Made by a program: the position numbers and the translations under genes. From contig JAIOJX010000024.1 in assembly GCA_022376925.1 (NCBI GenBank), forward strand, positions 166,873,608 to 166,937,607: 64,000 nt of DNA, in the 5' to 3' direction. Under the pieces are notes generated by a model. That model ran no database searches. It saw only the letters and a program-made list of their open reading frames with translations, and had not been told where the DNA came from. This document shows positions 3,501 through 61,079 of the stretch, one piece after another. Each line of letters opens with the position of its first letter. Within the stretch, counting starts at the first letter, position 1. Source of the DNA: Tragulus kanchil. Its lineage: Eukaryota; Chordata; Mammalia; Artiodactyla; Tragulidae.

Positions 3501-6500
3501 CAGAGCCCACAAGCTATTTAGTGGCTGAAAGTTACTCCACAGTAAGGAAGCCAGCAAAATAGCAATACTACAATCATATCACCTTCTATGCATACAGAGA
3601 ATTTACAGATCTTAGTCTACAAAGCACTTTCTGCCTGCCTATCTGCTCCTCATCAAACCCCTAACAGTAATTCAGGTCTCTTCCCAGCCACTCGTGCTGA
3701 AGAAGCTGAAGTTGAACGGTTCTATGAAGACCTACGAGATCTTCTAGAACTAACACCGGAAAAAGATATCCTTTTCATCTTTGGGGACTGGAATACAAAA
3801 GTAGGAAGTCATCAAATACCTGGAGTAACAGGCCAGTTTGGCCTTGGAGCACAAAATGAAGCAGGGCTAAGGGTAGCAGAGTTTTTCCAAGAGAATACAC
3901 TGGTCATAGCCAACACACTCTCCCAACACAAGAGATGACTATCACCAGCTATCAATACTGAAATCAGATCAGTTAGACTGACTAGAGACTAGAGATCTCT
4001 ACAAGAAAATCAGAAACACCAAGGGAAAATTTCATGCAAAGATAGGCACAATAAAGGACAGAAACAGTATGAACTTGACAGAAGCAGAAGAGATTGAGAA
4101 GAGGTGGTCAAAGTGATGATGCTGTTAAAGTGCTGCACTCAAAAGGCCAGCAAATTTGGGAAACTCAGCAGTGGTCTCAGGAGTGGAAAAGGTCAGTTTT
4201 CATTCCAATCGCAAAGAATGTTCAGACTAATGCACCATTGCACTCATTTCACACTCTAGCAAAGTAATGATTAAAATCCTCCAAATGAAGCTTTAACAGC
4301 ATGTGAAGAGAAAATCCTGTACAAACTGGATTTAGAAAAGGCAGAGGAACCAGAGATCAAATTGCCACTGTCTACTGGATCATAGGAAGAGCAAGGGAAT
4401 TCCAGAAAAACATCTACTTCTTCTTCATGGACTATGTTAAAGCCTTTGACTGTATAGATCACAACAAACTGTGGAAAATTCTTAAAGAGATGGGAATATC
4501 AAACCACCTTACCTGCCTCCTGTGAAACCTGTATACAGGTCAGGAAGCAACAGCAAGAACCAGACGTGGAACAACGGACTGCTTCCAAACTGGGAAAGGA
4601 GTACATCAAGGCTATATATTGTCACCCTGATTATTTAATTTATATGCAGAGGACATCATGCAAAATGGCAATCTGGATGAAGCAGAAACTGGAATCAAGA
4701 TTGCCAGGAGAAATATCAATAACCTCAGATATGCAGATGACACCACCCTTATGGCAGAAAGTGAAGAGGAACTGAACAGCCTCCTGATGAAGGTGAAAGA
4801 GGAAAGTGAAAAAACTGGCCTCAAACTCCACATTCAAAAAACTAAGATAATGGCATCTGGTCCCATTATTTCATGGCAAACAGATGGGCACAGAGTAGAA
4901 ACAGTGACAGATTTTATTTTCATAGGCTCCAAAATCATTATAGTTCCAAAAATGGCAAACAGATGGGCACAGAGTAGAAATCAGATCAGTCACTGGTCAT
5001 AGCCAACACACTCTCCCAACACAAGAGATGACTATCACCAGCTATCAATACTGAAATCAGATCAGTTAGACTGACTAGAGACTAGAGATCTCTACAAGAA
5101 AATCAGAAACACCAAGGGAAAATTTCATGCAAAGATAGGCACAATAAAGGACAGAAACAGTATGAACTTGACAGAAGCAGAAGAGATTGAGAAGAGGTGG
5201 TCAAAGTGATGATGCTGTTAAAGTGCTGCACTCAAAAGGCCAGCAAATTTGGGAAACTCAGCAGTGGTCTCAGGAGTGGAAAAGGTCAGTTTTCATTCCA
5301 ATCGCAAAGAATGTTCAGACTAATGCACCATTGCACTCATTTCACACTCTAGCAAAGTAATGATTAAAATCCTCCAAATGAAGCTTTAACAGCATGTGAA
5401 GAGAAAATCCTGTACAAACTGGATTTAGAAAAGGCAGAGGAACCAGAGATCAAATTGCCACTGTCTACTGGATCATAGGAAGAGCAAGGGAATTCCAGAA
5501 AAACATCTACTTCTTCTTCATGGACTATGTTAAAGCCTTTGACTGTATGGATCACAACAAACTGTGGAAAATTCTTAAAGAGATGGGAATATCAAACCAC
5601 CTTACCTGCCTCCTGTGAAACCTGTATACAGGTCAGGAAGCAACAGCAAGAACCAGACGTGGAACAACGGACTGCTTCCAAACTGGGAAAGGAGTACATC
5701 AAGGCTATATATTGTCACCCTGATTATTTAATTTATATGCAGAGGACATCATGTAAAATGGCAATCTGGATGAAGCAGAAACTGGAATCAAGATTGCCAG
5801 GAGAAATATCAATAACCTCAGATATGCAGATGACACCACCCTTATGGCAGAAAGTGAAGAGGAACTGAACAGCCTCCTGATGAAGGTGAAAGAGGAAAGT
5901 GAAAAAACTGGCCTCAAACTCCACATTCAAAAAACTAAGATAATGGCATCTGGTCCCATTATTTCATGGCAAACAGATGGGCACAGAGTAGAAACAGTGA
6001 CAGATTTTATTTTCATAGGCTCCAAAATCACTGTGGATAGTGACTGCAGCCATGAAATTAAAAGATGCTTGCTCCTTAGAAGAAAAGCTATGACAAACCT
6101 TGACAGTGTATTAAAAAGCAGAGACATCACTTTGCCAACAAAAGTTCATATAGTCAAAGCTGTGGTTTTCCCAGTAGTCATGTATGGATGTGAGTGTTGG
6201 ACCATAAAGGTTGAGTGCTGAAGAAGTGATGCCTTTGAACTGTGGTGTTTGAGAAGACTCTTGAGAGTCCCTTGGACAGCAAGGAGCTCAAAGCAGTCAG
6301 TCCTAAAGGAAATCAGCCCCGAATATTCATTGAAAGAACTGAGGCTGAATCTGAAGCTCCAATACTTTGACCATCTGATGCAAAGAGATGACTCTTTAGA
6401 AAAGACCCTGATGGGCTTCCCCTGGTGGTCCAGTGGGTGAGGACACCGCCTTGCAGTGCAAGGGGCGCTGGTTCGAGCCCTGGCCTGGGAAGATCCCACG

Positions 6501-9500
6501 TGCCGCGGAGCAGCTGGACCCATGTGTCCAATGACCGAGCCGGAGCTCTGGCGCGCATGCGCCCAGAGCCGGCGCTCAGCGACGACAGAGGCCACCGCGA
6601 TGGGAGGCCCACACGGGCCAAAGAAAAAAGACGGATGAAAATAGAGAAATGAAAGACCAATCGAAGTGGCCCTCCTGCTCCCCTCCCTCCCCAACCCGAC
6701 CCCCACCCAAAACAAATAAATAAATAAATCTTTAGAAAAGACCCTGATACTGAGGGAAAACAGAAGGCAGAAGGAGGGAACAACAGAGGACGAGATGGCT
6801 GGGTGGCATCACTGAGTCAGTGAGACAGGAGTTTGAGCAGGCTCCAGGAGACGTGGAGGACAGGGGAGCCTGGCGGCTGGAGGCCACGGAATCGCAGAGT
6901 CGGACACGACTGAGCGACTGAACTGACCTGAGCCCTGCGGCACTTGCAGCTCCCGTCCACAGAGGAGAACAGTGGCGCTCAGGGTGATGACAGGACTAAG
7001 CCCAGGTCATGGATACAGGAAAAAGCACCATCTGGATTGAGACAGGCCTGGGGTTTGAATCCCCATTCTTCCACTTACCAGCTGCATGACCGGAGCAAGT
7101 TTTTAACCTCTCTGAGCTGCAGCGCTCTTGCTTCAAACACCAGGGATGCTACTATTCACCTACGGGGGTTCTGAGATCATTTGATGAAAAGCAAGGTCAT
7201 GCCCAGCAGACATTATGTTTTTCCAGATATAATGTCTGAAGCTGTAAATATCTAACAACCCGGAAGATCCATAACACGCAGTAATTTGTCTTCCTCGTGA
7301 GGCCCAGATTTTAATCCTAGAGCAAGACTGGAAGGAGAAGGGACTCCCTGGTGGTCCAGTGACTAACAATCCACCTACCAATGCAGGGGAAACAGGTCTA
7401 ATTTCTGGTCCAGGAAGATTCCAGCTAAGCCCACGCAGCAAAACGACTGAAGTCCACATACCCAGACCCCTTGCTGCAGAGCAAGGGGAGCCACCGCAGC
7501 GAGAATTCCAAGCAGTGCAGCTAGAATGTCGCCCCTGCTCACCACAACTTCACTGCGCAGCAATGAAGACCCAGCACAGCCAAGCATTTATAAATACATA
7601 AACAATGAAAAAAAACTGGACTGAGAGAGGGAGGTACCTCGCTACCAAATGGGCCCAGAAAACATGCCAGTTCTCATCTGAGGACAGCACGACTATTTTT
7701 ACCTAATAGAAGAATTCACTGAATCCTCACATCCACTCTTTGAGGGAATTATAATTAGCATCATTAATACGTCTCTATCTTCTAACATAAAATCAAGAAA
7801 AGTACACATTACAGAAGAATTGAAGATTATGGGGGGTCCTCAATGCTCTCACAGTCAAACCCTCCTGAGTGTCCAGGGTTTATAGATGCAAAAGTACCTA
7901 GCAACGTGCGCGGTCTATGGGAGGCACTCGGCAAGCTCCACTCTACTGCCCTGCTCTTAACCAAAAAATCAACAAGAAAAATTTTTTTTGAAGAACCATC
8001 ATTTGACAGATATTCAAAAGACAGGACTATAGGGTAAGATCAATTGATCTGATTGGTAATTTCTCTCACTGCCAAGGATCTCCGGGACTTATGAGGGTGG
8101 GAAGGACGTCTCCACTTGCCTTCTCTTTCCGGCTCACCATAAAGTGCAACGCGGCACAAGAGAGAGGCGCTGTCAGATTACAAACCAAGAAACTTGAACA
8201 GAGTGATCCCAGAAATGGGATCCTGTGCTGACATTCGGTGAGTGTGTCCTAAATCGTTTCAGCTGTGCTCGACTCTTTGCCAGCCTATGGACTGTAGCCA
8301 CCAGGCTCCTCTGTCCATGGGAGTCTCCAGGCAAGAAGACTGGAGTGGGTTGCCATGCCCGCCGCCAGGGGATCTTTCCCACCCAGGAATTGAACCTGCG
8401 TCTCCTGCATTGTCAGGCAGGTTCTTTACCACTAGCGCCACCTGGGAAGTCCCACCGACATTTTAATTGTTTCCAAAAAAAAGCTAAAAGAAGAGCGGAG
8501 ACCGAAGTGGCTGCATTTAAAGGACCGCGGTGGGTGGGTGGGCTGCTCAGGACGTGACGGGGGTGGCAGTGAGGGTGGCGATGCGTGTGACGAGGCGGAA
8601 ACTCCATGGAGGATAGGAGAACCGCCCCAGCAAGCCTGGATTATCTGTGCTCCTCGGCCCCCTGCTCGCGGGGCGTGGCCGGCGGAGCACCTGCAGGACG
8701 CCCCCGCCGCGGCTGCCGGGGTGGTGGTGCAGGAAGTGCTCCGGGAGCCCGAGCATCTTGGCCAGCCAGTCCATGATGTTCATCTCCAGCTCCGTGCACG
8801 CCGGGCTGGAAGCCTGCAAGAGGGGAAGCAGCGTCATCTGGAGCGCCCCCAGGGCCCCAAGACGCCCCCACCAGTCCCCAGACACATCCGTCTCTGCCTT
8901 GAGCCGCCCCCGCCTACTCTGTCTTGCCCCCGGAAAAGAGAGAAGGGGGCGCTTTCAGGCCCTGCTCCCCATCCCCACCCCATCCTCTGCCAGACTAAAA
9001 AGGGGAAGGAAAATGGGGCTTTGGGTCAGGTCGTCCTCAGTGAGGTGAATTCTTCTGTGACTCCAAAGCCTTACAGACACACAGCCCCAGAAATGGTTGC
9101 TTCCATTTGGCTCCCCAGTCTCTAAAACACTCAGCTGAAAAGCATTCTAAAGGCCAGGGGGGCGTTTTAGGACTAAGAAACAAACCACCTCCTCCTGGAA
9201 AAGAGAGCAGCGCTCCCACGCCCACGCACGCACCGCCTAACAGTGCAGGCTTCACATGCAGAGCTGTGCTAGGTGGCTTCCGCCACGACTGAACGCTGAT
9301 GGATGTGTAAGGGCTTATTAAGGGAAGTCTGGGGGCATATCCCTAACCCTTCCATGACAAGAGCACAGGGGAAGTTATGCCCAGAGGCACCAAAATGCTT
9401 AGAGAATGTCACCAACTCCGGTCATAAGCAGATGCCAACCCAGATCTCATCTCTGTCTCAATGAGCTGTGAGGGCTCCAGGAGATACGTTTCTTAAGCCT

Positions 9501-16365: not shown

Positions 16366-16376
16366 GGGGCTTCCCT

Positions 16377-16854: not shown

Positions 16855-18114
16855 TTCTCTTCTACCGTATACAGAAATAAATTCAGAATGGATTAAACAC
16901 CTCTATGGAAGACCAGAAACCATAAAACTCACAGAAGAAAACACAAGTAGACCACTTTCTGACATAAATTTCAGCCATGTTTTTGGATGTCTCTTAAAAG
17001 CAAAGGATATAAAAGAAAAAAATAAACAAATGGAAACTAATTAAACGTAATAGCCTTTGCACAGCAAAGGAAACCATCAACAAAATGAAAACCTACTGAA
17101 TGGGAGAAAATATTTCCAAATATTTGATTGATAATGTGTTAATCCAAAATACGTAGCTCAACATCCAAAAAAGAAAGAAAGAAAAAAAAAACCACAAACA
17201 ACCTGATTTAAAAATGGCCAGAAGACCTGAATAGACATTTTTCCAGAAAAAAACATTCAGATGGCCAAGAGGCATAGGCAAACAAGAACCATTATGTAAA
17301 TCAAAAGCACAATGCCGGGCTTCCCTGGTGGTCCAGTGGGTAAGGACACCGCCTTGCAGTGCAAGGGGCGCCGGTTCAATCCCTGGCCTGGGAAGATCCC
17401 ACGTGCCACGGATCAGCGGGACCGATGTGTTCAATGACCGAGCTGGAGCTCTGGAGCGCATGCGCCCAGAGCCGGTGCTCTGCGACAGCAGAGGCCACTG
17501 CGATGGAAGGCCCACACTGGCCAAAGAACAAAGATGCAAATAAATGAAAAAACAATAGAAGTGACCAAAACAAAACAAACCCACAATGTGGTTATCACGT
17601 CACCAATCAGCCAATCAGAATGGCTATCATCAAAAAGTCTACAAATAGAAAATGCTGGAGAGGGTGTGGAGAAAAGGGATCCCTCTTAAACTATTGGTGG
17701 GAATGTAAATTGGTGCAGCCACTGTGATGAACAGTATAGAATTTCTTTAAAAAAAAAAATTAAAGCTACCATATGATCCAGCAATCCCACTCCTACACCT
17801 GTATCTGGAAAAAAGGAAAACTCTAATTTGAAAAGATGTATGTATCTCAATATTCCCAGAAGCACTATTTACAATAGGCATGACAAGGGGACAGTCCAAG
17901 CGCCCATCAACAGATAACTGCTTTAAGATGGAATATTACTCAGTCGTAAAAAGAACGAAAATTTGCCATTTGAAGCAACATAGATGGACCTAGCGAGTAC
18001 TATGTTTAGTGAAATAAATTAGGGAAAGGCAAATACTATATATCACTTCCATGTTGAATCTAAAAAATAAACTAGTAAATATAACAGAAAAAGGAAAAAT
18101 AAATAGGAGGATTT
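16855..18114 (+). mobile_element. Older L1, 3' part of ORF2 plus 3' UTR
   Basis: aatggattaaacacctctat, gcctttgcacagcaaaggaa, ggaatgtaaattggtgcagc and tgatccagcaatcccactcc are landmarks of the end of L1 ORF2. Multiple stops make it non-coding. A SINE splits it at 17327-17579. Part of it (17541 onward) recurs at 18646 onward through a 1.1-kb duplication. Confidence 0.88.
17327..17579 (+). repeat. CHR-like SINE, local family
   Basis: Copy inserted in the older L1, with gggcttccctggtggtccag at its head and a short cacaatg duplication at both ends. It lacks the C-rich part near the tail seen in other members. Confidence 0.9.
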
Positions 18115-19745
18115 AAAGTGTGACAGTGGAGGGGGTGGAGCTAAGATGGCGGCGTAGAAGGACGTGCACTCATCTCTCCTGCAAAATCGCCTGAATTGCA
18201 ACGAGTTCCTGAAAAACCATCGACAGGAGGAGGTTGGATCTCATCACAAAAAAGATACCCCACATCGAAGAACAAAGGAGAAGCCGCATCAAGACGGGAG
18301 GAAGGGTGCAATCGCACTTTTAAGTCAAACCTCATACCCGCCAGAGAGGCCGGGTGGGCCAAAGGTGCAAAGCCTGTTGCAGATCAAGACCCGGGAAAGG
18401 AGCGGTGACGCCCACAGGGGACAGAGCTAGACCTGCTTTGGAGGGTCCAGGTGCCCCCTTGAGCTAGAAGTGCCCTTGAGCAGGCCTCGGAAGGGCGGCA
18501 CTCAGTTCCCTTTGGAGGAGGTTACCATTAACCCGATCACAGAGCGCCGAGTAGGGCTGGAAACTCTGGGCGCACCTTGATCCCACAGAGCCAGACTCAC
18601 CTCTGAGTAACAGTGGACCAAAGAACAAAGATGCCACAAAAAAGGTAAATGAAAAAACAATAGAAGTGACCAAAACAAAACAAACCCACAATGTGGTTAT
18701 CACGTCACCAATCAGCCAATCAGAATGGCTATCATCAAAAAGTCTACAAATAGAAAATGCTGGAGAGGGTGTGGAGAAAAGGGATCCCTCTTAAACTATT
18801 GGTGGGAATGTAAATTGGTGCAGCCACTGTGATGAACAGTATAGAATTTCTTTAAAAAAAAAAATTAAAGCTACCATATGATCCAGCAATCCCACTCCTA
18901 CACCTGTATCTGGAAAAAAGGAAAACTCTAATTTGAAAAGATGTATGTATCTCAATATTCCCAGAAGCACTATTTACAATAGGCATGACAAGGGGACAGT
19001 CCAAGCGCCCATCAACAGATAACTGCTTTAAGATGGAATATTACTCAGTCGTAAAAAGAACGAAAATTTGCCATTTGAAGCAACATAGATGGACCTAGCG
19101 AGTACTATGTTTAGTGAAATAAATTAGGGAAAGGCAAATACTATATATCACTTCCATGTTGAATCTAAAAAATAAACTAGTAAATATAACAGAAAAAGGA
19201 AAAATAAATAGGAGGATTTAAAGTGTGACAGTGGAGGGGGTGGAGCTAAGATGGCGGCGTAGAAGGACGTGCACTCATCTCTCCTGCAAAATCGCCTGAA
19301 TTGCAACGAGTTCCTGAAAAACCATCGACAGGAGGAGGTTGGATCTCATCACAAAAAAGATACCCCACATCGAAGAACAAAGGAGAAGCCGCATCAAGAC
19401 GGGAGGAAGGGTGCAATCGCACTTTTAAGTCAAACCTCATACCCGCCAGAGAGGCCGGGTGGGCCAAAGGTGCAAAGCCTGTTGCAGATCAAGACCCGGG
19501 AAAGGAGCGGTGACGCCCACAGGGGACAGAGCTAGACCTGCTTTGGAGGGTCCAGGTGCCCCCTTGAGCTAGAAGTGCCCTTGAGCAGGCCTCGGAAGGG
19601 CGGCACTCAGTTCCCTTTGGAGGAGGTTACCATTAACCCGATCACAGAGCCGCCGAGTAGGGCTGGAAACTCTGGGCGCACCTTGATCCGGGAGAGGGGA
19701 CTAGTGATCCTGCATGAGACTGAGCCAGACTCACCTCTGAGTAAC
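17541..19745. repeat. Tandem duplication B, offset 1105
   Basis: 17541-18610 recurs at 18646-19745, crossing the SINE tail, old L1 and the young L1 5' end. Copy 1 lacks about 35 bp near 18583. Confidence 0.97.
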
Positions 19746-35480: not shown

Positions 35481-35484
35481 AGAT

Positions 35485-37109: not shown

Positions 37110-37332
37110 AGTGGTGGTGGTAGCTTAGTTGTTTAGTAGTGTCTAACTTTTGCAACACCACGGGCTGTATGTAGCTGCCTGCCAGGTTCCCCTGTTCATG
37201 GAATTATCCAGGCAAGAATACTGGAGTGGGGAACCATTTCCTTCTCCAGGGAACCTTCCCCATCCAGGAATTGAACCCAGGTCTCCTGAATGGCAGGCAG
37301 ATTCTTCACCAACTAAGCTACACAGGAAGCCC
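37110..37332 (-). repeat. Bov-A2-type SINE (tandem-duplication copy)
   Basis: Same insertion as 36000-36222, repeated at an offset near 1110 with no visible difference. Confidence 0.9.
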
Positions 37333-37941
37333 AATGGTAGAAGAAGAGAAAAACTACCTGCTATTGCTATTAGGAAAGACTGACATTAGAAAATAACTTC
37401 TAAAACCCAATAAAAATAACTTGCCCTTTAGGCAAGTAATGGAAAAATAAATAACAATAAATGAAAATTAGTTGAAAAGCACAATCTCTGTAGATACCAG
37501 TGGTCAGATGAGGCTTCCTGAAATCACCACAGACCAAGCTAGAATTTGTAGTCTGAGTTCCAGCAACTATACACCGTGAAGTTTTAAGTCTTAATAAAGT
37601 TCTTAGGCCATCAAGACATCTAATGAACTTAGTGTCTAGTTAGTACCTAACCAGTACTATTTCAGATGCATGAGAGAGAAAATAATGCATTAAGAAGGAA
37701 TGAATTCATTAGGTCCTAACATTTAGGACATTAGGGCTCTATTCTTTCACAGAACCCTGGGTGAGACAGGCTCCTCAGGAAGGTCCGTGTTCATTTAAAA
37801 TCAGTATCTCATACCTCTTTTGAAAATACAAACGGAAACATCCTTAACCCAATAAAAAGTAACTATCCCCATGCATCTTTACTTTTCACACAAATATTAA
37901 AATAAAGCGTGGATTGTTTTCTAATAAAAATAAAAATAAGC

Positions 37942-47500: not shown

Positions 47501-50500
47501 AAAAAAAAAAGGACGCCAGCCTCGAGTAACCAACGGACACCAGGACTTTAGACAGGGTTCAAGCCAGACCCCTCTCCCCCAGCTCTGGCAGGGCATGCAC
47601 AGCCACACATTCAAGTCTTTTCACAAAAAACCAAATTATACCATTTTACAAACCATTAAAATACTAATTTATCTCTTGTAATTCATTATATGATATAAAA
47701 CACACGGATCAATTTCCTGAACAAACGGAAAGGCAAAACACAAATGAAATGGAATGATCCAACGAAAAGGACATTCTTTCTCCTCCTCCTCCTCGCTCTG
47801 CCCTTACACAGCTGTCTAAGGGAAAACACATCACAGACTCCTTCCCCGCCTCTCCAGCAAGCATATGGACAAAACCTCAGCTTTCACAGGCTCAAGCTCA
47901 ACCTCGCTTCAGAAGCAGGCCCTCTGCGTGGGGCGGCGGTGAGGGCAGGACTACTAATCACAAGCCAAGGCCACGCTCACAGTGGACAAGACACTTGGCC
48001 AGAAAGAACCGAGAGGGGTCACTAGCGTGCACTAGTGGACCACGGGGGTCTCTTCCTGCCCCCTTGCCCCTCGTCCACTGTGAATACCAGAAGGTCCTCT
48101 TCCTCTCACTATTCACAGCGTGCATAACGAGGAACACATGTAACAATCCTGCCTGCCTGGGACCCACTGATTTCCCCCACACTGGGAGTAAAGCTAGATT
48201 CAACATTAACTTTTCCCATGAGACCACCAAGTGTGGGAATGATTGATTATACAGTCTCCAAATCTCCCAATTACACAAAATGTACAGTAGAAGAAAGGTG
48301 TGCCCTCATCTCCAAGTTAAGAGGTGCCTAAGCCCTACCCTGCTACGCTTTTCTCTTCACTAGAGGCAAGATGCCAGCCTTGGGTGTCCCTGGTGGTCCA
48401 GGGACTCTTTACTGCAAGGTAAGGAGTCCGCCTTGCCATACCAGGGGCACCAGTTTGATCTCTGGCCCGGGAAGACCCTATATGCTGAGAAACGGCTGGG
48501 CCAGTGTGTCCGGTTAGGAACCAGTGATCTGGAGCACCTGCGCCCAGAGCCGGTGCTCTGCAGCGAAAGAAGCCACTGTGATGGGAGGCCGAAGAATAAA
48601 GACGGATGAAATATAAACGATGACTTAGAGGCAAAAAAAAAAAAAGGACGCCAGCCTCGAGTAACCAACGGACACCAGGACTTTAGACAGGGTTCAAGCC
48701 AGACCCCTCTCCCCCAGCTCTGGCAGGGCATGCACAGCCACACATTCAAGTCTTTTAGGACTTTACGTGTCCTAAGAAATCAGATCCGTAGGCAGTCAAA
48801 GGTTTTTTTTTTTCCAAAGTTTTGAATATGGATACAAACTTGCCCCAATTTGATAGGCGATATTAGAAAAGATTGAGGTAGCGTCTAGTATTTGACTCCT
48901 TGTTCACATTTACTCCAGATGATGAAACCAATAGGGAAGATCTGATCTTACACCACGAGTTCACGCCCAAGCAATGTACGATTATCACACGGGTGGCTGG
49001 GCCTGTACTTCGTGCCCACCTCCTGCAACCCCCAGGGACGGCAGCCCGCCAGGCTCCTCGGGCCGTGGGCTTCTCCAGGCAGCAGTGCTGGAGTGGGTGG
49101 CCACGTCCTCCGCCAGGCGGTCTCCCCGCCCCCTCGAGCTCTCCTGCAGAGCAGGCAGACTCTTGAGCCACAGAGAAGCGCAGTCTCCGAGGGGAAGCGA
49201 AGACTTGCAGTTTGCCTTTTTATTTCCAAACAAGACTCTTGAATTCTGCTTCAGCTCTTCTCAGTTATCCTTTAACTGTTTCACATGTAACTTTCTCATA
49301 TTCAAATTAATTTGACTTTGGCTATTACGATACAAAAAGTCCTAATAGTGATTTACATTCTACCACACCTCATAAATGTTACAGCGACAGCCACGGTCAC
49401 TGAGCATCTTCTATATGCTCTCCACTGTACCAGTGCTCCCCGTGCATTCTCACTCAGACCTCACAGCCACGTGAAAACGTAGGTGCCGTCATTTTCCCAT
49501 TTGCCGAGGAGGAAGCCAAACCTCGAAAGGCAAATAACTTGACCAATAACACTCAGAAGATTATCATTCAAATCTACATCTGATTTCAGACTCATATTCT
49601 TAACTATTAATTTTTTTTTTTTTAAAGAGAGAAACTGGGCAGGCAGTGTGTGGCGTCTGTGTGCAAACACCCATCTCTAACCGCCAGGGACCACGCGTGA
49701 CCCTAGGTTTATGCATCAAGTTTTACAGAAACACAGCCACGCCCACTCATGACCCCACTGTCCAGTTACCTACGGCTGCTTTTCCACTGCTAGGGCAGAA
49801 CGGAATCGCAAAACACACACACTCCAGGGTGTTCAGCAGCATCCCCGGCCCTGCCCACTCAGTGTCAAGGCCATGTCTCTCACAGGGACAACCTCCCAGG
49901 TGTCCAGACGGGGCCAAATGTCTCCTGGGATCAAACTGCTCCCGTCGAGAACCACAGCTTTGGAGCAACTGTTGGTGCTAATGGCCTAGCAATCATTTAG
50001 AAAGGAATGTAAAAGTATACCCCCAAGACCACATCACTGGTCATCTAAGAAAAAAAATCAAAACCACTTCTTGATGTACTCTGAGGTAATGACCACCTGG
50101 TTTACTAACAACATTGGAGGTCTCTCTTCATTCTACCATCTCTGCTCACTGTAGCTTCGAGGTCTCTCTGCAGCTCTAAGACTATGCGGTTTTCGCCTAG
50201 ACATTTTCGGTGATGGAGAATAAGACTTCCATTACCAGAAAGCTCGAGTTACTAAAACTGAGCTAGAACTCTAACTCCCTGAAGTTATATCAAGCTAAAA
50301 TTCCATTTCCCTGAAGTTCTGTCTCCTTGGTTCTAATGTATACACCTCAATTTATACCTGCTTGTTATTTGCAATTATTCTGCTTGGTCTCTGAAAGACT
50401 GTAAAGGGATCTAGGCTGACCTTTGAAGAAAACAGCAACTTGCACTTGTTGTTAGTAAATAACGTACAGGCTGCATATTAACTGTTTTAAATGTTACAGC

Positions 50501-53500
50501 GACAGCCACGGTCACTGAGCATCTTCTATATGCTCTCCACTGTACCAGTGCTCCCGTGCATTCTCACTCAGACCTCACAGCCACGTGAAAACGAGGTGCC
50601 GTCATTTTCCCATTTGCCGAGGAGGAAGCCAAACCTCGAAAGGCAAATAACTTGACCAATAACACTCAGAAGATTATCATTCAAATCTACATCTGATTTC
50701 AGACTCATATTCTTAACTATTAATTTTTTTTTTTTTAAAGAGAGAAACTGGGCAGGCAGTGTGTGGCGTCTGTGTGCAAACACCCATCTCTAACCGCCAG
50801 GGACCACGCGTGACCCTAGGTTTATGCATCAAGTTTTACAGAAACACAGCCACGCCCACTCATGACCCCACTGTCCAGTTACCTACGGCTGCTTTTCCAC
50901 TGCTAGGGCAGAACGGAATCGCAAAACACACACACTCCAGGGTGTTCAGCAGCATCCCCGGCCCTGCCCACTCAGTGTCAAGGCCATGTCTCTCACAGGG
51001 ACAACCTCCCAGGTGTCCAGACGGGGCCAAATGTCTCCTGGGATCAAACTGCTCCCGTCGAGAACCACAGCTTTGGAGCAACTGTTGGTGCTAATGGCCT
51101 AGCAATCATTTAGAAAGGAATGTAAAGTATCCCCCCAAGACCACATCACTGGTCATCTAAGAAAAAAAATCAAAACCACTTCTTGATGTACTCTGAGGTA
51201 ATGACCACCTGGTTTACTAACAACATTGGAGGTCTCTCTTCATTCTACCATCTCTGCTCACTGTAGCTTCGAGGTCTCTCTGCAGCTCTAAGACTATGCG
51301 GTTTTCGCCTAGACATTTTCGGTGATGGAGAATAAGACTTCCATTACCAGAAAGCTCGAGTTACTAAAACTGAGCTAGAACTCTAACTCCCTGAAGTTAT
51401 ATCAAGCTAAAATTCCATTTCCCTGAAGTTCTGTCTCCTTGGTTCTAATGTATACACCTCAATTTATACCTGCTTGTTATTTGCAATTATTCTGCTTGGT
51501 CTCTGAAAGACTGTAAAGGGATCTAGGCTGACCTTTGAAGAAAACAGCAACTTGCACTTGTTGTTAGTAAATAAACGTACAGGCTGCATATTAACTGTTT
51601 TAAAAATGGTGAATGATTTTAATAAATCAACTATATTTCAGTTAAAAGAAAGGGTGAATTGAGTCAGTTTATGTACAATAAAAATTCAAGTAATTTAAAA
51701 ATGTTTTATTAAATAGTTGAAGTAAAGTGCATGACAGAATCTTCTTCACTTTATACGCCAGAAAAAAAGACCAACTGATTTACCTGTAACAGATATTAAA
51801 GATTAAATAATAAGCATACTGGTACCTTTCAATGAAATAAATGGTTAGTTTAGAAGAACTTCAGTGCATTAAATATTACTTTAAATTTTGAAGAAATAGA
51901 ACTACATGCCCTCAATAATTAAGCATTCTTAAACATCTGGTTAAACCATGAATCAACTTCTTCTTAACTCAGTAATGTATCTTTTGAGATGGTGACCAAA
52001 GACACACCAGTCTTGTATGTAAAAGAATTTGAGGAAGAGTATTTTCTAACTGTCCTCAGAATTACGTTGCCTTTAGGCAACATTTTCTTAAGTCCTCCTT
52101 TTTCTATGATAATATGAACCTTAACAAAGAATTCCTAAATATTCGCCAATGTTTATTACTCACATATATTAGGCATTAGGAATGTGTATATAATGATAAG
52201 TTGACTTTTTCAACTCTCATAAAATCCTAAACATGCAGATATTGTTATCCTAATTTCCAGTCTGGGAGAAAATAAAACAGAAGTGCGAAAACATAAGCTA
52301 AATGTATTAGCTTTCCCTCAAAGGTAATAGATGGGGCAAGAAGAGGGACTGAAATCCAGCTTATTTATATATTTCAAATTCAAGTTCTTGTCTTTACATC
52401 GTAATTGCTCTTTCAAAGTTACTCAAGAATGACATTTTCATTTTGATGTTAGCTAATTATCAAACTTGGGGAACATAATTCTATATACAGTGATGCATAT
52501 AAATCATGTTTTGGTTATACTTATAAACTAGTTGAGAATTATAAACTAGTTCGGATACTAGAGGGGAAAAAAGGTGACTCCTATCAACAGCTAGCCTACA
52601 TTTAATTTCCTTAACAGATTCAACAGTGAAATAAGTGGTTATCTATGGCTTTTTCAAAAAAATAACTCAGTTGACAAATTCCAACTTTCTCTAAGAGGAT
52701 CTTTGGGCCCAAATAACCATTTGTATTTCATTTTTGAAAGAAAAAAAATTTTCTTAGTCAATAAATAATGACATTCCCATTAGTGACTTGTGAGAATGAT
52801 GTATGTAAATTTAACAGAAAATAAAGGATGGAGTGCAAGAACCAAAGACATTCGATGTTACCATGATGACAGACTTTGTTACAAACAGATTCTTCACTCA
52901 CTCATTCATTCAACGTTTATTTATTGAAGGCTTACTATATGAATAAGGCAAAAAAAATAGACAAAAAAGCACTCTATCAAAACAACACTGTACAGTAATA
53001 AATATAAAAGATAAAAAAAGCAAACGGAATTTATTCTGGATGACTGCAGCAAAACACACCGGGCAAAAGACTCCTTACTTCTATTTCTGCAGACTCCACC
53101 CGGTTTTCAATTATTTCGATACATTGTCTTTTGGCCGGAGGTTCTTCACTGATAACAGTTTCTTCAGCAATGTCCGTTGCTGGTACTGTTAATACTAAAG
53201 TGAAAAAATGTGCACATTACTTCATCTTCATATGGGTTTAGAAGAATTAAAACTAGTCTTGAGATTACTGATGCAACTCGTCTAAAATAAATACATTCCC
53301 CAAACAGTAATTTCAAAACACAAGATTTACTTTCTATGAGAAATGTCTGTATTTTTGTCTTCAATTTCTTGCCTTTTTATTGAAAACTACTTACTGCTTA
53401 AAGTGTCTATTTTTTATCTTATAGATAATATAGTCATTCATATGGCTCAAAATCAAAATATAATATGAATACTTTGCTAACGCAGATAACTGCTTTTATG

Positions 53501-56500
53501 TATTTCTTGTGCACTGTTCTTGTGCTCACTTATGTAGAACTGAACATGAATTTGCATTCTCTTTTCTTACACTGAAGTTTCTGTTCTTTTCACTCCATAC
53601 ATCTAGGTATCTTCCGACACTTAGTGAGCTGTTTAACTGAGCTTCATTATATCCCACTATGTGGATCACCCTATGGACACCGCCTATTTAAAAGCTGTCG
53701 GACAGCTGGAATCTTCCCCATTGATTTATCCAGACTGTTTGCCTGGTTTTAGCTTACACAGTCATTGTTATGTTCTTGCACTATTGTGCAAAGCAAGGAC
53801 AGCCTCTCCCTCTCTATATATTTACATTTATGGAAAGAGATACTAAAAATTGAGACAAAGCCCAACAGCCCAATGGAGGAGCAAAGCTTATACACAGGCA
53901 GTGTCCAGATGGTGTAAAACTATTATGAATTAAAAACCTTAGAAATATTGAGGACAAAAGTATTTCTTTTAACTCATATTACCCTTATAGATTTACTCAA
54001 GAATTGAGAAATGTGTTTCATTGGACTCTCTACAAAGCCATATATTCATACGCCATTTATAATTTCTAAATGATAAAGGTTCTGAATGTTTAATATTCAG
54101 CAGGTTCCTCTCATTGCTCTCTCCCCCTCCTTCCCCATCAGTATAAATTTCAGAATCGGTTCCATCTGGTGAGTTCCAGAAAAAGACCTACTGGTTTTTA
54201 CTAAGGCCTGAATTGTGACCCCATCAAAATTCAAATGTTTAAGTCCTCATCTGCAGTGCCTCTGAATATATTTGCAGATAGGACCCTTAAAAAGGTTTGA
54301 CAGGTAAAATGAGGTCATTTGAGTGGGCCCAATCCAGCATGACTGCCGTCCTTGAAGAGGACAGGTCGCAGACGAGATATCCAGACTGGGGAACGTCCAC
54401 GGGAGGACACAGCAAGAAGAGAACCACTCGCAGGCCGAGGAGAAGGGCCTCCGAAGACGCCTGCCAGCACCGTGACCTCGGACTTCAGCCTCCAGTACTT
54501 GCCGTCCCCTTTTGAAGAAAAAAAAAAAAAAGGGGGGGATCATATCTGAAACTTTTCTAAACAGATTTTACTGTTCATTCATATGCACTCGCTATACATT
54601 TCTTGTGCACTGTTCTTGTGCTCACTTATGTAGAACTGAACATGAATTTGCATTCTCTTTTCTTACACTGAAGTTTCTGTTCTTTTCACTCCATACATCT
54701 AGGTATCTTCCGACACTTAGTGAGCTGTTTAACTGAGCTTCATTATATCCCACTATGTGGATCACCCTATGGACACCGCCTATTTAAAAGCTGTCGGACA
54801 GCTGGAATCTTCCCCATTGATTTATCCAGACTGTTTGCCTGGTTTTAGCTTACACAGTCATTGTTATGTTCTTGCACTATTGTGCAAAGCAAGGACAGCC
54901 TCTCCCTCTCTATATATTTACATTTATGGAAAGAGATACTAAAAATTGAGACAAAGCCCAACAGCCCAATGGAGGAGCAAAGCTTATACACAGGCAGTGT
55001 CCAGATGGTGTAAAACTATTATGAATTAAAAACCTTAGAAATATTGAGGACAAAAGTATTTCTTTTAACTCATATTACCCTTATAGATTTACTCAAGAAT
55101 TGAGAAATGTGTTTCATTGGACTCTCTACAAAGCCATATATTCATACGCCATTTATAATTTCTAAATGATAAAGGTTCTGAATGTTTAATATTCAGCAGG
55201 TTCCTCTCATTGCTCTCTCCCCCTCCTTCCCCATCAGTATAAATTTCAGAATCGGTTCCATCTGGTGAGTTCCAGAAAAAGACCTACTGGTTTTTACTAA
55301 GGCCTGAATTGTGACCCCATCAAAATTCAAATGTTTAAGTCCTCATCTGCAGTGCCTCTGAATATATTTGCAGATAGGACCCTTAAAAAGGTTTGACAGG
55401 TAAAATGAGGTCATTTGAGTGGGCCCAATCCAGCATGACTGCCGTCCTTGAAGAGGACAGGTCGCAGACGAGATATCCAGACTGGGGAACGTCCACGGGA
55501 GGACACAGCAAGAAGAGAACCACTCGCAGGCCGAGGAGAAGGGCCTCCGAAGACGCCTGCCAGCACCGTGACCTCGGACTTCAGCCTCCAGTACTGTGAG
55601 AAGGTAAGCTTCTGTTAAGTCACCCAGCCTGCGGTAGTTTGTTACGGCAGCCCTAGCAAACTAATACAGTCTTTCCCCCCCAATACATTTATCAATTAGG
55701 TCAGGAAGAACTGAGAGCTTTATGATAGTGAGTCACAGTGAGCTATCATATCAAAAACATGAGTTTCTTTCCAGTTGCTCATCAGTGAGATTTGCCTATA
55801 ATGTCAGGTATTGGGAGCAATGTTATAGCTGCTTCAAACAAATACTTTGAAAGCTTCTTCTTTTCTATACAGTTGGAATTAACTCTTTAAAGCCCTGTTA
55901 AGTGCCTGGCCTTGATCCAAACCTTGGATAACCACCAGGAGAGAAGCACCTGCCAGGCCTGCCCGGCCACGCGGCAGCCGCCTCCAGCGCCGCGGCAGCG
56001 AAGCCCTGCCTCGGGACCTGGCCGCCCCCGGGGCCGCGCCGCCCCTGCCGCTCTCCGCCTCATCTGGGTTAGGAGGCCGTCTCCCTGCAGCCCTTCCCTT
56101 GCCCAGCGCCTTCACAGGCCGTGGAGAGCCGAGTGTCCGCAGTCCTAGTCATTTTCCAGGCTGTGTGTGCGCATCCCTTCCTGTCTGGCCAGGGTGGGGG
56201 CCGGGGGGCGCGGGGTGCAGGGCGGGGCTTGCTCGGACAGGAACCTTCGCCACTTTCTCTTGCGCTTCCTCCAACCGTCATGCCTCACCTTTTTTTTTTT
56301 TTTTAATCTTTTGGAGGGTGGGGGTGGGGAGGGAGGGGGGTGGGCGGGCCACTTCTTTTGGTCTTTCATTTCTCTATTTTCATCCATCTTTGTTCTTTGG
56401 CTCCTGATGGGCCTCCCGTCGCGGTGGCCTCTGTCTTCGCAGAGCACCGGCTCTGGGCTCACACACGCCAGAGCTCCGGTAATTGGTCTGAATATATTTG

Positions 56501-58914
56501 CAGATAGGACCCTTAAAAAGGTTTGACAGGTAAAATGAGGTCATTTGAGTGGGCCCAATCCAGCATGACTGCCGTCCTTGAAGAGGACAGGTCGCAGACG
56601 AGATATCCAGACTGGGGAACGTCCACGGGAGGACACAGCAAGAAGAGAACCACTCGCAGGCCGAGGAGAAGGGCCTCCGAAGCGCCTGCCAGCACCGTGA
56701 CCTCGGACTTCAGCCTCCAGTACTGTGAGAAGGTAAGCTTCTGTTAAGTCACCCAGCCTGCGGTAGTTTGTTACGGCAGCCCTAGCAAACTAATACAGTC
56801 TTTCCCCCCCAATACATTTATCAATTAGGTCAGGAAGAACTGAGAGCTTTATGATAGTGAGTCACAGTGAGCTATCATATCAAAAACATGAGTTTCTTTC
56901 CAGTTGCTCATCAGTGAGATTTGCCTATAATGTCAGGTATTGGGAGCAATGTTATAGCTGCTTCAAACAAATACTTTGAAAGCTTCTTCTTTTCTATACA
57001 GTTGGAATTAACTCTTTAAAGCCCTGTTAAGTGCCTGGCCTTGATCCAAACCTTGGATAACCACCAGGAGAGAAGCACCTGCCAGGCCTGCCCGGCCACG
57101 CGGCAGCCGCCTCCAGCGCCGCGGCAGCGAAGCCCTGCCTCGGGACCTGGCCGCCCCCGGGGCCGCGCCGCCCCTGCCGCTCTCCGCCTCATCTGGGTTA
57201 GGAGGCCGTCTCCCTGCAGCCCTTCCCTTGCCCAGCGCCTTCACAGGCCGTGGAGAGCCGAGTGTCCGCAGTCCTAGTCATTTTCCAGGCTGTGTGTGCG
57301 CATCCCTTCCTGTCTGGCCAGGGTGGGGGCCGGGGGGCGCGGGGTGCAGGGCGGGGCTTGCTCGGACAGGAACCTTCGCCACTTTCTCTTGCGCTTCCTC
57401 CAACCGTCATGCCTCACCTTTTTTTTTTTTTTTAATCTTTTGGAGGGTGGGGGTGGGGAGGGAGGGGGATGGGCGGGCCACTTCTTTTGGTCTTTCATTT
57501 CTCTATTTTCATCCATCTTTGTTCTTTGGCTCCTGATGGGCCTCCCGTCGCGGTGGCCTCTGTCGTCGCAGAGCACCGGCTCTGGGCTCACACACGCCAG
57601 AGCTCCGGCTCGGTAATTGGACACATCGGTCCAGCCGCTCCACCGCACGTGGGATCTTCCCAGGCCAGGGCTCGAACCGGCGCCCTTTGCACTGCAAGGC
57701 GGTGTCTTTACCCACTGGGCCACCAGGGGAAGCCCCATGCCTCATCTATCTTAACCCTACTTGCAGCACTTCCTACTCAGGCTGGGCCCTGTCTTGCTGG
57801 AAGTGTATATTTATTGCTAATTTCAGAGCTCAGCTCCTTTTCATGATGCACAATTACTGATTGCCCTGAAAGTTCTCCTGCCCTGGCTTAGATTTTTTTT
57901 TTTTAAATTTCGGCCTCTTCTATTTTTTTTTTATTTTATTTATTCTCATTCATCTTTATTCTTTGGCTTGTGTGGGCCTCCCATGGCAGTGGCCTCCCTC
58001 GCTGCCTAGCAATGGCTCTGGGCGCATGCGCTCTAGAGCACTGGCTCCTAATTGGACACACCGGTCCAGCCGCTCTGCCACACATGGGATCTTCCCAGGC
58101 CAGGGATCAAACCGGTGCCCCTTGCACTGCAAGGCAGACTCTTTACCCACTAGACCACCAGGGAAGCCCTGGCTTAGACCTTAAGATGTTTCCAGCAAGC
58201 ACTTAAAATATGGACTTTTGTGCTTTTCTTCTACTTTTTACTTTGACTAAAAATGTACGTGGGGTTTATGTTTCATCTGTTTTATTACTACTCTCTTATT
58301 ACTCAAAACGAATAAAAGTGGGACAATTGTCAACAAAGCTGCTGAAAGTTGCATCCATGTCCAACTTCTTTCTAAGCAACCTTTTCTCGCATGGTGCTTT
58401 TAAAGGCCCATACGATATCTGAATTGTATTAAATGGCCTAGGAGAGTACTGTCCAATACTGATATTGAAATATGTATTTTAGTTCATTTTCCAATTAGAA
58501 TATTTTGGGGCCATTTCCTCTTTCTACTTAATATACACTCAGAGAAATTAAACTAACTCTAACAGTAGCCTAAGTCAGACATGACTTAGTGACTGAACAA
58601 CAAAGAAAATAAAATTAAGTAATTAAGTCTATTGTAAAACCTTACAAAAATGTACAGTAAGGTACAAATGCTTTGAAAAATATAACACAATTTCCTGAGA
58701 ATTATATATGTTAATGCCTTCTACCAACCTTGTTGTCCATCTGGCATGGTCACGATGATGGGCTGGCCTATTCCACTTGTTGGAATGGAGTGCAAATTCC
58801 CAAGCTGAATTCCATCAGTGACTATTGTGATGACTTGCTGACCCCCTGAACTAACTACTTGCTGAATTGCACCATCCACAGATTCTGCAGTAACAACTTC
58901 CTCCGTAGCCACTA
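44411..58914 (-). CDS. GABPB1: GA-binding protein beta-1, last three coding exons
   Basis: GABPB1 (NRF-2 beta) is the non-DNA-binding subunit of GABP. Its N-terminal ankyrin repeats bind the ETS protein GABPA, and a C-terminal leucine-zipper-like helix dimerises beta chains into a heterotetramer that activates nuclear genes for mitochondria and translation. The window holds the transactivation segment (58729-58914), the PPAKRQC basic segment (53079-53194) and the C-terminal coiled coil (44411-44563), all in phase and nearly identical to the human long isoform, ending NKEAV. The ankyrin exons lie beyond the right edge. The introns contain 1.1-kb duplications, one of which copies the edge of the first exon. 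GABPB2 is excluded by the C-terminal text. Confidence 0.96.
44564..44935. other. GABPB1 last intron, unique part
   Basis: Unique intron beside the terminal exon. No feature recognised. Confidence 0.5.
44937..45255 (+). repeat. CHR-like SINE, tandem copy 1
   Basis: First of three head-to-tail copies. Its first half differs from the other two (cagttcgatccc, ccaattaccggaactctgg); its second half is almost identical to copy 2. Flanks carry aaaatctattact. Confidence 0.92.
45271..45600 (+). repeat. CHR-like SINE, tandem copy 2 (chimeric)
   Basis: Its first half is identical to copy 3 (ggtgccggtttgagccctgg) and its second half to copy 1 (cagacgccac, then the cccaacctgacccccgccca tail). It therefore looks like a recombinant of its neighbours. 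Confidence 0.92.
45608..45925 (+). repeat. CHR-like SINE, tandem copy 3
   Basis: Third copy, with its own tail (ccaccccaccccccgaaaga). It is followed by aaaatctataact, a changed version of the flank seen before copies 1 and 2. Confidence 0.92.
45955..46115 (-). repeat. MIR-like SINE, antisense
   Basis: gtccattttacagatgagga, aaataatgctcagagaaaat, then ccaataaggagtcaggttta is the reversed MIR 3' half. Confidence 0.65.
46151..46424 (+). repeat. CHR-like SINE, local family
   Basis: Copy with atcattccct on both sides as target-site duplication and a long poly(A). Confidence 0.92.
46425..47244. other. GABPB1 intron, unique part
   Basis: Intron sequence with an open frame at 46609-46890 that starts with a leucine run but has no homologue I recognise. 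It recurs from 47633 onward by tandem duplication. Confidence 0.5.
47245..47511 (+). repeat. CHR-like SINE, diverged (first copy)
   Basis: Older member of the local family: gggtgtccctggtggtccag, gtttgatctctggcccggga, agaataaagacggatgaa. It is flanked by gatgccagcct and gacgccagcct. Confidence 0.85.
48379..48646 (+). repeat. CHR-like SINE, diverged (duplication copy)
   Basis: Same insertion as 47245-47511 at offset 1135, differing in poly(A) length. Confidence 0.85.
49005..49180 (-). repeat. Bov-A2-type SINE, diverged
   Basis: ggctcctcgggccgtgggct, tctccaggcagcagtgctgg and agtgggtggccacgtcctcc parallel antisense Bov-A2, with a GC-rich, CpG-preserving character. Confidence 0.75.
49374..51603. 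repeat. Tandem duplication K, offset 1113-1115
   Basis: 49374-50488 recurs at 50489-51603. The junction overlaps by aaatg. Confidence 0.97.
49395..49610 (-). repeat. MIR SINE, antisense (first copy)
   Basis: cattttcccatttgccgagg, aggaagccaaacctcgaaag, gcaaataacttgaccaataa follow reversed MIR. The same element recurs at about 50510-50725. Confidence 0.65.
51604..53078. other. GABPB1 intron, AT-rich
   Basis: Mostly unique, AT-rich intron. A MIR-like stretch lies at about 52140-52400 (atattgttatcctaatttcc). attcattcaacgtttattta near 52905 is an old interspersed-repeat motif. Nothing else recognised. Confidence 0.5.
53079..53194 (-). CDS. GABPB1: GABPB1 exon with PPAKRQC segment
   Basis: A 116-nt exon begins by completing valine, then [38 protein letters not shown], and ends GAA|gtaagg. 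Acceptor is ctttag. The basic AKRQC patch lies in the region assigned to nuclear localisation. Acidic residues flank it. Confidence 0.97.
53195..54207. other. GABPB1 intron, unique part
   Basis: AT-rich intron upstream of the PPAKRQC exon. No repeat family recognised. From 53502 it recurs at 54598 onward. Confidence 0.5.
53502..55595. repeat. Tandem duplication L, offset 1096
   Basis: 53502-54499 recurs at 54598-55595, with a 98-bp filler of unknown source. Confidence 0.97.
54208..54499 (+). repeat. MLT1-type LTR (ERVL-MaLR), first copy
   Basis: gcctgaattgtgaccccatc, aaatgaggtcatttgagtgg, gaggacacagcaagaagaga and gacttcagcctccagtact follow the order of an MLT1/MaLR LTR, a non-coding remnant of an ancient retrovirus-like element. 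This copy is cut at the duplication junction. Confidence 0.8.
55304..55672 (+). repeat. MLT1-type LTR, second (complete) copy
   Basis: Same LTR at offset 1096, continuing to its 3' end (gttaagtcacccagcctgcg, cagccctagcaaactaatac). Confidence 0.85.
55930..56275. other. CpG-rich block in GABPB1 intron (with copy at 57059-57404)
   Basis: About 340 bp dense in CpG (ccggccacgcggcagccgcc, cgcccccggggccgcgccgc) inside AT-rich intron. No coding text or promoter motif that I recognise. Its copy lies at offset 1129. It could be a small CpG island or a GC-rich retro-insert. Confidence 0.6.
56293..56480 (-). repeat. CHR-like SINE, local family (cut by junction)
   Basis: Antisense copy beginning with poly(T); it stops at gagctccggtaattgg where the duplication restarts. 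Confidence 0.88.
56487..56805 (+). repeat. MLT1-type LTR, third (5'-truncated) copy
   Basis: Third appearance of the same LTR, created by the next duplication, starting at tctgaatatatttgcagata. Confidence 0.85.
57421..57736 (-). repeat. CHR-like SINE, local family (complete copy)
   Basis: Complete version of the insertion cut at 56480, reaching ccactgggccaccaggggaa. atgcctca is repeated on both sides. Confidence 0.92.
57893..58168 (-). repeat. CHR-like SINE, local family, with TSD
   Basis: Antisense copy flanked by cctggcttaga on both sides (57882-57892 and about 58168-58178). Confidence 0.92.
58169..58728. other. GABPB1 intron, unique part
   Basis: Intron beside the activation-domain exon. 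gtcagacatgacttagtgac near 58576 resembles the 3' end of a BovB or Bov-A element. Nothing else recognised. Confidence 0.5.
58729..58914 (-). CDS. GABPB1: GABPB1 transactivation exon
   Basis: A 186-nt exon encodes [20 protein letters not shown] through VTMPDGQQ, after a completed split valine codon (exon starts TA at acceptor ccag). It ends one base into the next valine at CAAG|gttggt. The alternating hydrophobic and glutamine-rich text is the activation domain, reported to contact the coactivator HCF-1. Confidence 0.97.
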
Positions 58915-59096
58915 CTGGAAAAAAAAAATGTAAATGTAAAAATCAGTAAACAAGTACAGAAGCATGAAGAGAGTTTACTTTTGTTGTCTTTGCTTCTTTC
59001 TTATACAGAAAAGCTTTTATATGGTTTTTAAATTCAGTGTCCAGCGGTGCTGTAAATGCCTATGTACACAGTCAGTTCCAGCTACCTAGGCATACG

Positions 59097-59583
59097 TGCA
59101 CACTCAGTCACAGTCACGTCTGATTCTTTGCCATCCATGGACTAGAGCCCACCAGGCTCCTCTTGTCCATGGGATTCTCCAGGCAAGAATACTGGAGTAG
59201 GAGGCTTCCCTGCTGGTCCAGTTCACCTTGCAGTGCAAGGGGCACCAGTTCTATCCCTGGCCTGGGAAGATCCCATGTGCCGCGAAGCGGCTGGACCGAT
59301 GTGTCCAATTACGAGCCAGTGCTCTGCAGCACATGCGCCCACAGCCAGAGCTCTGCAACGAGAGAGGCCACTGCCATGGGAGCCCACACAGGCCAAAGAA
59401 TAAAGATGGATGAAAATAAATGGATACAAAAATCTATCAAAGAGGCCAAAAATTAAAAAAAAAAAAAAAAAGAATATTGGAAAAGATAGCCGTTTCCTTC
59501 TCCAGGGGATCTTCCCAACTCAAGGACTGAACCTGGGTCTCCTGCATTGCAGGCAGATTCTTTACCATCTGAGCTATTTGTTT
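59097..59583 (-). repeat. Bov-A2 split by a CHR-like SINE (first copy)
   Basis: Antisense Bov-A2 at 59097-59202 (ccatgggattctccaggcaa) resumes at 59475-59583 (ctgaacctgggtctcctgca). The sense SINE between them is flanked by agaatactggagtag and agaatattggaaaag. This gives relative ages: Bov-A2 first, local SINE later. Confidence 0.9.
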
Positions 59584-59953
59584 AAATAAACTGTCTTTCT
59601 TTAGCTCTATGAGGCATAAAATTTCTAAGATCTCCTAAGGTCACAGATACAACAAAGGCTATACCACCTTAATAAAATTCCACAATCCTAAAAAGAAAAT
59701 ACTGTACATGGTTACACTCCATTCAAATTCACGTATGAGTTGGTGTACATTTCCTATCCAACACAATATGGAGATGTGTCTTTCTCAAGCAGACAGAAAA
59801 AAGTGCACTCCCTTTCTGGATTGTGTGAGCAAGAGGTGCCTTTGTGATCAGTCGCACATAGATCCACTGCTACAGGACAGCAGATAACACAGCAAATTAA
59901 CATTAACATGAACAAACAAATGTCCACGTTTATGAGTTGGTGTACCCTTTCCT

Positions 59954-59981
59954 GCAGTAACAACCTCCTCCGTAGCCACTA
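59954..59981 (-). pseudogene. GABPB1: Duplicated GABPB1 exon edge with splice acceptor
   Basis: The first 28 bases of the exon at 58887-58914, with its ccag acceptor and poly-pyrimidine tract, recur here in the upstream intron with one substitution (t to c at 59968). The fragment encodes VATEEVVTA and then runs into unrelated sequence without the rest of the exon or its donor. It belongs to the 1.07-kb tandem duplication 58887-60980. Confidence 0.85.
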
Positions 59982-60163
59982 CTGGAAAAAAAAAATGTAA
60001 ATGTAAAAATCAGTAAACAAGTACAGAAGCATGAAGAGAGTTTACTTTTGTTGTCTTTGCTTCTTTCTTATACAGAAAAGCTTTTATATGGTTTTTAAAT
60101 TCAGTGTCCAGCGGTGCTGTAAATGCCTATGTACACAGTCAGTTCCAGCTACCTAGGCATACG

Positions 60164-60650
60164 TGCACACTCAGTCACAGTCACGTCTGATTCTTTGCCA
60201 TCCATGGACTAGAGCCCACCAGGCTCCTCTTGTCCATGGGATTCTCCAGGCAAGAATACTGGAGTAGGAGGCTTCCCTGCTGGTCCAGTTCACCTTGCAG
60301 TGCAAGGGGCACCAGTTCTATCCCTGGCCTGGGAAGATCCCATGTGCCGCGAAGCGGCTGGACCGATGTGTCCAATTACGAGCCAGTGCTCTGCAGCACA
60401 TGCGCCCACAGCCAGAGCTCTGCAACGAGAGAGGCCACTGCCATGGGAGCCCACACAGGCCAAAGAATAAAGATGGATGAAAATAAATGGATACAAAAAT
60501 CTATCAAAGAGGCCAAAAATTAAAAAAAAAAAAAAAAGAATATTGGAAAAGATAGCCGTTTCCTTCTCCAGGGGATCTTCCCAACTCAAGGACTGAACCT
60601 GGGTCTCCTGCATTGCAGGCAGATTCTTTACCATCTGAGCTATTTGTTTA
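60164..60650 (-). repeat. Bov-A2 split by a CHR-like SINE (duplication copy)
   Basis: The whole nested pair of 59097-59583 recurs at offset about 1067, with a one-base shorter poly(A). Confidence 0.9.
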
Positions 60651-61079
60651 AATAAACTGTCTTTCTTTAGCTCTATGAGGCATAAAATTTCTAAGATCTC
60701 CTAAGGTCACAGATACAACAAAGGCTATACCACCTTAATAAAATTCCACAATCCTAAAAAGAAAATACTGTACATGGTTACACTCCATTCAAATTCACGT
60801 ATGAGTTGGTGTACATTTCCTATCCAACACAATATGGAGATGTGTCTTTCTCAAGCAGACAGAAAAAAGTGCACTCCCTTTCTGGATTGTGTGAGCAAGA
60901 GGTGCCTTTGTGATCAGTCGCACATAGATCCACTGCTACAGGACAGCAGATAACACAGCAAATTAACATTAACATGAACACAATGCAGAACTATGCTCCC
61001 AACGTCTTCTGAAAAGCTCAGAGAGGATTTTGGCAGCTGAAGAGAGTAGCACTCCAGGTCCCGCCTGCCTCGGTAAAGA

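Follow-up and report, generated by a model that had tools for sequence, protein, structure and literature searches.

The 64,000-nt stretch of the Tragulus kanchil assembly analysed here (GCA_022376925.1, contig JAIOJX010000024.1, positions 166,873,608 to 166,937,607 of the forward strand; hereafter the window) contains 14 head-to-tail pairs of direct repeats of about 1.1 kb. These pairs are almost certainly an assembly artefact in which overlaps between assembled pieces were left unmerged, and not a product of biology. A preliminary description of this ruminant window had reported fourteen direct tandem duplications of nearly constant length, and exact 24-mer diagonals with pairwise local alignment recovered all of them (14/14). 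Its offsets and its total of about 15.5 kb, approximately a quarter of the window, were also reproduced, with remeasurement from the core starts giving 1151 in place of 1150 and 1120 in place of 1119. The pairs (J1 to J14) are listed below with the matching core of each copy, the sequence between left-core end and right-core start (junk, 0-100 bp) and the offset between core starts.

J1, 3898..6030: left copy 3898-4937, junk 4938-4990, right copy 4991-6030; offset 1093; within a reverse-transcriptase remnant, with RVT_1 in frames on both copies
J2, 17541..19650: left copy 17541-18545, junk 18546-18645, right copy 18646-19650; offset 1105; junk made of degraded left-copy continuation and degraded right-copy start
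J3, 19457..21630: left copy 19457-20537, junk 20538-20549, right copy 20550-21630; offset 1093; in the endonuclease region of LINE-1 ORF2, left copy overlapping the J2 right copy
J4, 22772..25004: left copy 22772-23886, 3 bp of junk, right copy 23890-25004; offset 1118; order of the LINE-1 ORF2 frame broken
J5, 27027..29162: left copy 27027-28058, junk 28059-28130, right copy 28131-29162; offset 1104; junk a deletion-rich left-copy continuation
J6, 31029..33159: left copy 31029-32067, junk 32068-32120, right copy 32121-33159; offset 1092
J7, 32823..35092: left copy 32823-33942, junk 33943-33973, right copy 33974-35092; offset 1151; deletion-rich continuation, overlapping J6 to give a triple stretch
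J8, 35803..37934: left copy 35803-36821, junk 36822-36912, right copy 36913-37934; offset 1110; junk a left-copy continuation followed by a re-copied 28-nt block
J9, 42125..44349: left copy 42125-43230, junk 43231-43244, right copy 43245-44349; offset 1120
J10, 46498..48756: left copy 46498-47621, junk 47622-47632, right copy 47633-48756; offset 1135
J11, 49373..51600: left copy 49373-50487, no junk, right copy 50488-51600; offset 1115
J12, 53502..55595: left copy 53502-54499, junk 54500-54597 of untraced origin, right copy 54598-55595; offset 1096
J13, 55357..57608: left copy 55357-56479, 7 bp of junk, right copy 56487-57608; offset 1130; overlapping J12 to give a triple stretch
J14, 58899..60980: left copy 58899-59914, junk 59915-59965, right copy 59966-60980; offset 1067; cutting into a coding exon

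The offsets ranged from 1067 to 1151 with a mean of 1109.2, a standard deviation (SD) of 21.3 and a coefficient of variation (CV) of 1.9% (n = 14 pairs). Under an illustrative null of log-uniform lengths from 0.2 to 10 kb, which was our own choice, the probability that 13 further lengths would fall within the 1067-1151 band was P ~5e-23, and chance is excluded as the source of the uniform pair length. The copies were 99-100% identical in all 14 pairs, with 13 mismatches and 15 indel columns in 14,939 aligned columns, where core ends were set from the 24-mer diagonals and alignments and degraded ends were left out of the count. No difference at all was present in the cores of J2, J3, J5 and J12 (4/14), and near-identity across kilobase lengths likewise excludes chance. 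Core length was 998-1124 bp, as the junctions hold 0-100 bp of junk. Neighbouring pairs J2/J3, J6/J7 and J12/J13 overlapped, which placed 0.19-0.34 kb in triplicate (24-mer diagonal offsets of 2198, 2243 and 2226). A 14-mer scan of the window at offsets from 500 to 2000 showed no fifteenth pair of this kind, the remaining diagonals being short and located at 16.4 kb and around a 338-bp array at about 45 kb.

The junk at the junctions was traced in part to the flanks of the copies. At J2, J5, J7 and J8 it continues the left copy and matches the sequence that follows the right copy; together these continuations hold 214 nt over 278 nt of template; bases are lost at J2, J5 and J7, whereas J8 has lost none. 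The rest of the J2 junk is a degraded version of the sequence preceding the left copy, and the last 13 nt of the J14 junk match the sequence preceding the left copy, that is, the start of a right copy. A score for left-tail and right-head origin exceeded all 60 shuffles at 5 of the 13 gapped junctions (J2, J5, J7, J8 and J14), and a block test exceeded all 200 shuffles in 7 of the 11 gaps of at least 9 nt (J1, J2, J5, J6, J7, J8 and J14). J4 and J11 were nearly clean with 3 and 0 bp of junk, and three of the five core mismatches of J4 were found within the final 33 bp of its left copy. When junk was assigned to left tail or right head, the overlap in genome bases was 1054-1162 with a CV of 2.5%, no more constant than the plain offset. 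Overall, sequence quality drops toward the junction at many joints, and from both sides in J2, a pattern more in keeping with consensus pieces that were built separately and end there than with the breakpoint of a duplication. A biological duplication would be expected to leave a single breakpoint with no degraded continuation of the template, whereas such continuations were found at J2, J5, J7 and J8.

The differences inside the cores showed a similar pattern. Of 11 single-base indels between copies, seven were in homopolymers (runs of at least 3), and all of the remaining four directly adjoined CpG, compared to a background of 3.5% (396/11,459 comparable positions; P 1.4e-6, indicative only since the pattern was spotted before being tested). 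The four CpG-adjoining indels were in the first 230 bp of the right copies of J7, J9, J11 and J13, and the base was missing from the right copy in every case. Homopolymer errors and errors beside methylated CpG are typical of nanopore base-calling. The indels as a whole look like nanopore error, and the four beside CpG like methylation-linked error that could serve as a fingerprint of the platform. Six of nine right-copy deletions were within the first 230 bp (P 0.005), with 4/9 at a 150-bp cut (P 0.027) and 6/9 at a 300-bp cut (P 0.018). Because of the kinds of indel and this clustering of right-copy deletions near the start, the copies look like two consensus readings of one locus, of which the right one is poorer near its own start.

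When each right-copy start was counted as the start of a piece, 13 whole pieces were obtained with lengths of 1853-13655 bp and none below 1853 bp. The shortest three were 1853, 1889 and 1904 bp, and in each of them the overlap with the previous piece runs into that with the next by 0.19-0.34 kb. Under exponential spacing of the same mean, a length floor at the observed minimum had P 0.003, or 0.002 when the longest piece was left out; for three pieces so near the floor the values were 0.03 and 0.05, respectively. The two tests were devised after the data were seen. Polishing in chunks with fixed overlaps was considered and dropped because the pieces vary from 1.85 to 13.7 kb. The order in which the pieces occur also led us to consider contig and filler pieces in alternation as a possible arrangement.

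From the junk and the degraded ends at several junctions, we infer that the pairs meet at the boundaries of assembled pieces. Consecutive consensus pieces that share about 1.1 kb would have been joined one after another with the shared part left uncollapsed, and an uncollapsed assembly overlap, already the preferred reading of the preliminary description, fits the fixed offset, the near identity, the degraded junctions and the kinds of indel. Two routes to it had been proposed, gap filling and an uncollapsed overlap. An unmerged overlap of adjacent consensus pieces has the better support, because degradation was found both at the end of the left piece (J2, J5, J7 and J8) and at the start of the right piece (J2 and J14), and because the two overlaps of the short pieces intrude on each other.

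The length of 1.1 kb is fairly likely to derive from the node of an assembler of the wtdbg/wtdbg2 type. In wtdbg2 one node is common to adjacent edges, the overlap between nodes can reach 256 bases, and the shared node has to be aligned and merged by the consensus program. The points of its graph are described, in the available text of PMC7506008, as 1024-bp stretches of reads. Each piece would then be the consensus of an edge, or of a run of edges, of such a fuzzy Bruijn graph, and adjacent edges would share one node of 1024 raw read bases. If the reads were deletion-biased, and probably nanopore, 1024 raw bases would correspond to about 1.11 kb of true sequence. The consensus step may have failed to align the shared node at the 14 joins and concatenated the pieces instead, and polishing would have left the copies nearly identical and the piece ends unrepaired. 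Of six simulated error settings of our own choice, two stretched 1024 raw bases to 1105 and 1114 genome bases, with SDs of 17.5 and 19.7, respectively, compared to the observed 1109 (SD 21). The shortest pieces of 1853, 1889 and 1904 bp can be set beside the shortest possible edge of 1792 raw bases (two nodes less the default overlap of 256). According to the available text of PMC10250393, wtdbg2 on nanopore reads followed by Racon and Pilon has been used for cattle; this establishes no more than that a ruminant has been assembled in this way.

Several observations weigh against this account. The other four of the six simulated settings missed the observed offset, giving 1072, 1132, 1024 and 948. 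An offset of 1109 from 1024 requires a scale of 1.083, i.e., a net deletion of 7.7%, which is on the high side, and the shortest pieces, if they are 1792 raw bases, require a scale of 1.03-1.06 versus 1.083 for the offsets. No 256-base steps were found in the 13 piece lengths, where the best fit was no better than 1000 random sets; such steps are expected only if edges keep their raw lengths and are not defining for wtdbg2. The bases missing from left copies were not clearly concentrated at the end, with 2/4 in the last 230 bp (P 0.2). The junk of J3, J9, J10 and J12 had no traced origin and did not pass the block test against 200 shuffles, while that of J1, J6, J8 and J14 also contains 10-28 nt blocks found again within the left copy, in the manner of a mosaic or a templated insertion; one guess is that these blocks came from local reassembly during polishing. 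There is no N in the window and so no gap between the copies, and a gap is a usual, though not a necessary, sign of same-scaffold false duplications according to the available text of PMC9516828. In addition, no description of a duplication of a node of about 1 kb by wtdbg was found in the accessible portions of the literature searched.

Related defects have been described in other assemblies. Homotype false duplications are known to arise where contigs overlap at their boundaries (PMC8081667; PMC9516828, both as far as the accessible text goes). The homotype false duplications of the Vertebrate Genomes Project, as they appear there, share with the present pairs a locus written twice side by side, near-identical copies and poor sequence where the copies meet, whereas the present pairs have a fixed length of about 1.1 kb and no gap between the copies. 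Duplicated overlapping contigs were reported for cow and other assemblies (Kelley and Salzberg 2010, PMC2864568, available portions); there too neighbouring contigs share sequence at their ends and neither copy was removed, but those arose from haplotype divergence while the present copies barely differ and have a fixed length. As regards the fuzzy Bruijn graph of wtdbg2, the likeness would be in a fixed unit of about 1 kb common to adjacent pieces and a length floor near two nodes, and the differences are that the present offsets are 8% above 1024 and that 256-base steps were not seen.

A different artefact, without any fixed graph node, is the main rival and is less likely than the node origin but still a serious possibility: contigs of another assembler, or two haplotypes, may have been joined at an overlap, or gaps may have been filled with sequence repeating one flank. 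Overlaps at contig boundaries and haplotype duplicates are both described in the accessible parts of PMC2864568, PMC9516828 and PMC8081667, and among the differences between copies there are a few transitions, both differences of J1 included, that may be heterozygous sites. However, neither route fixes the overlap to 2% over pieces of 1.85-13.7 kb, and separated haplotypes are ill-suited to four of 14 cores that show no difference. It is very unlikely that the overlap is a single sequencing read of about 1.1 kb, e.g., an untrimmed Sanger read, common to two contigs. Homotype duplications are often about read-length according to the available text of PMC8081667, and the junk at piece ends could be read ends, but reads of nearly uniform length would be required and the left tails have lost bases in entire blocks (214 nt over 278 nt at J2, J5, J7 and J8). 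The homopolymer and CpG-adjacent indels also suit noisy long reads better, a judgement on platform made from general knowledge.

If unitigs of a large-k de Bruijn graph, perhaps a homopolymer-compressed one, shared an exact overlap of k-1 bases, a fixed overlap with variable piece lengths would result. This is nevertheless the least probable origin considered, and its chance is negligible, because the offsets take several values, become more variable when homopolymers are compressed (CV of 2.9% in the left copy and 2.6% in the right copy versus 1.9%) and are accompanied by junk at most junctions. Also highly improbable is a real and recent burst in which fourteen tandem duplications of about 1.1 kb arose at the same time, whether by local re-replication of a fixed tract length, in itself undescribed, or by templated end-joining. 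The 10-28 nt blocks in the junk of J1, J6, J8 and J14 that recur nearby speak for it, as short recurring blocks of this kind resemble templated insertions. Against this, 14 events would be needed in 57 kb, with one size to 2% and one age, as the pairs are about equally identical; at J2, J5, J7 and J8 the junk carries the same template on in degraded form, and the kinds of indel resemble sequencing error. Biological duplications would be expected to differ in length and age, whereas the lengths here had a CV of 1.9% and all 14 pairs were 99-100% identical.

Reverse-transcriptase remnants (RVT_1) and LINE-1 ORF2 were identified in the window, and the remnant at J1 is presumably BovB, a ruminant marker. 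In an open frame at 23579-24640, a match to residues 945-1023 of LINE-1 ORF2p (8uw3) is followed by one to residues 649-898, so that J4 interrupts the residue order. The second J4 copy is therefore extra relative to a normal LINE-1 element; the broken order alone does not separate an artefact from a real duplication. The minus-strand exon near 58.6-58.95 kb, which we take from its translation to be GABPB1, has a second copy of its 5' part upstream by way of J14 (window 58601-60100 for the two together), where a gene predictor run on this assembly might annotate a partial exon that is false. Exons of histidine decarboxylase were found at window 1221-13486 on the minus strand, where Pfam Pyridoxal_deC was present in three open frames colinear with the profile; for the two of these three frames that were compared, the best match among solved structures was histidine decarboxylase 4e1o. 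This part of the window contains only one of the 14 junctions.

Other repeats were present in the window. A 338-bp unit was found three times at 44920-45933 with a 92% match and a content resembling a short interspersed nuclear element (SINE); this array is separate from the 1.1 kb pairs and is possibly real. A perfect 20-bp tandem repeat of 3.2 copies was located at window 41552-41614. Rfam and ARAGORN each gave only four tRNA-like matches in the window, which are probably SINE-derived.

Artificial duplications in wtdbg2 assemblies were looked for only above 100 kb in one paper, as far as its accessible text goes (PMC13251582), and a search with that limit would miss a defect of about 1.1 kb. 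Other long-read assemblies could be checked cheaply for the same defect by scanning for head-to-tail repeats of about 1.1 kb whose copies are separated by 0-100 bp of junk. As biology, the pairs have no significance; if they are an artefact, they amount to about 15.5 kb of false sequence in the window, with inflated repeat counts, a broken LINE-1 frame and part of a coding exon repeated.

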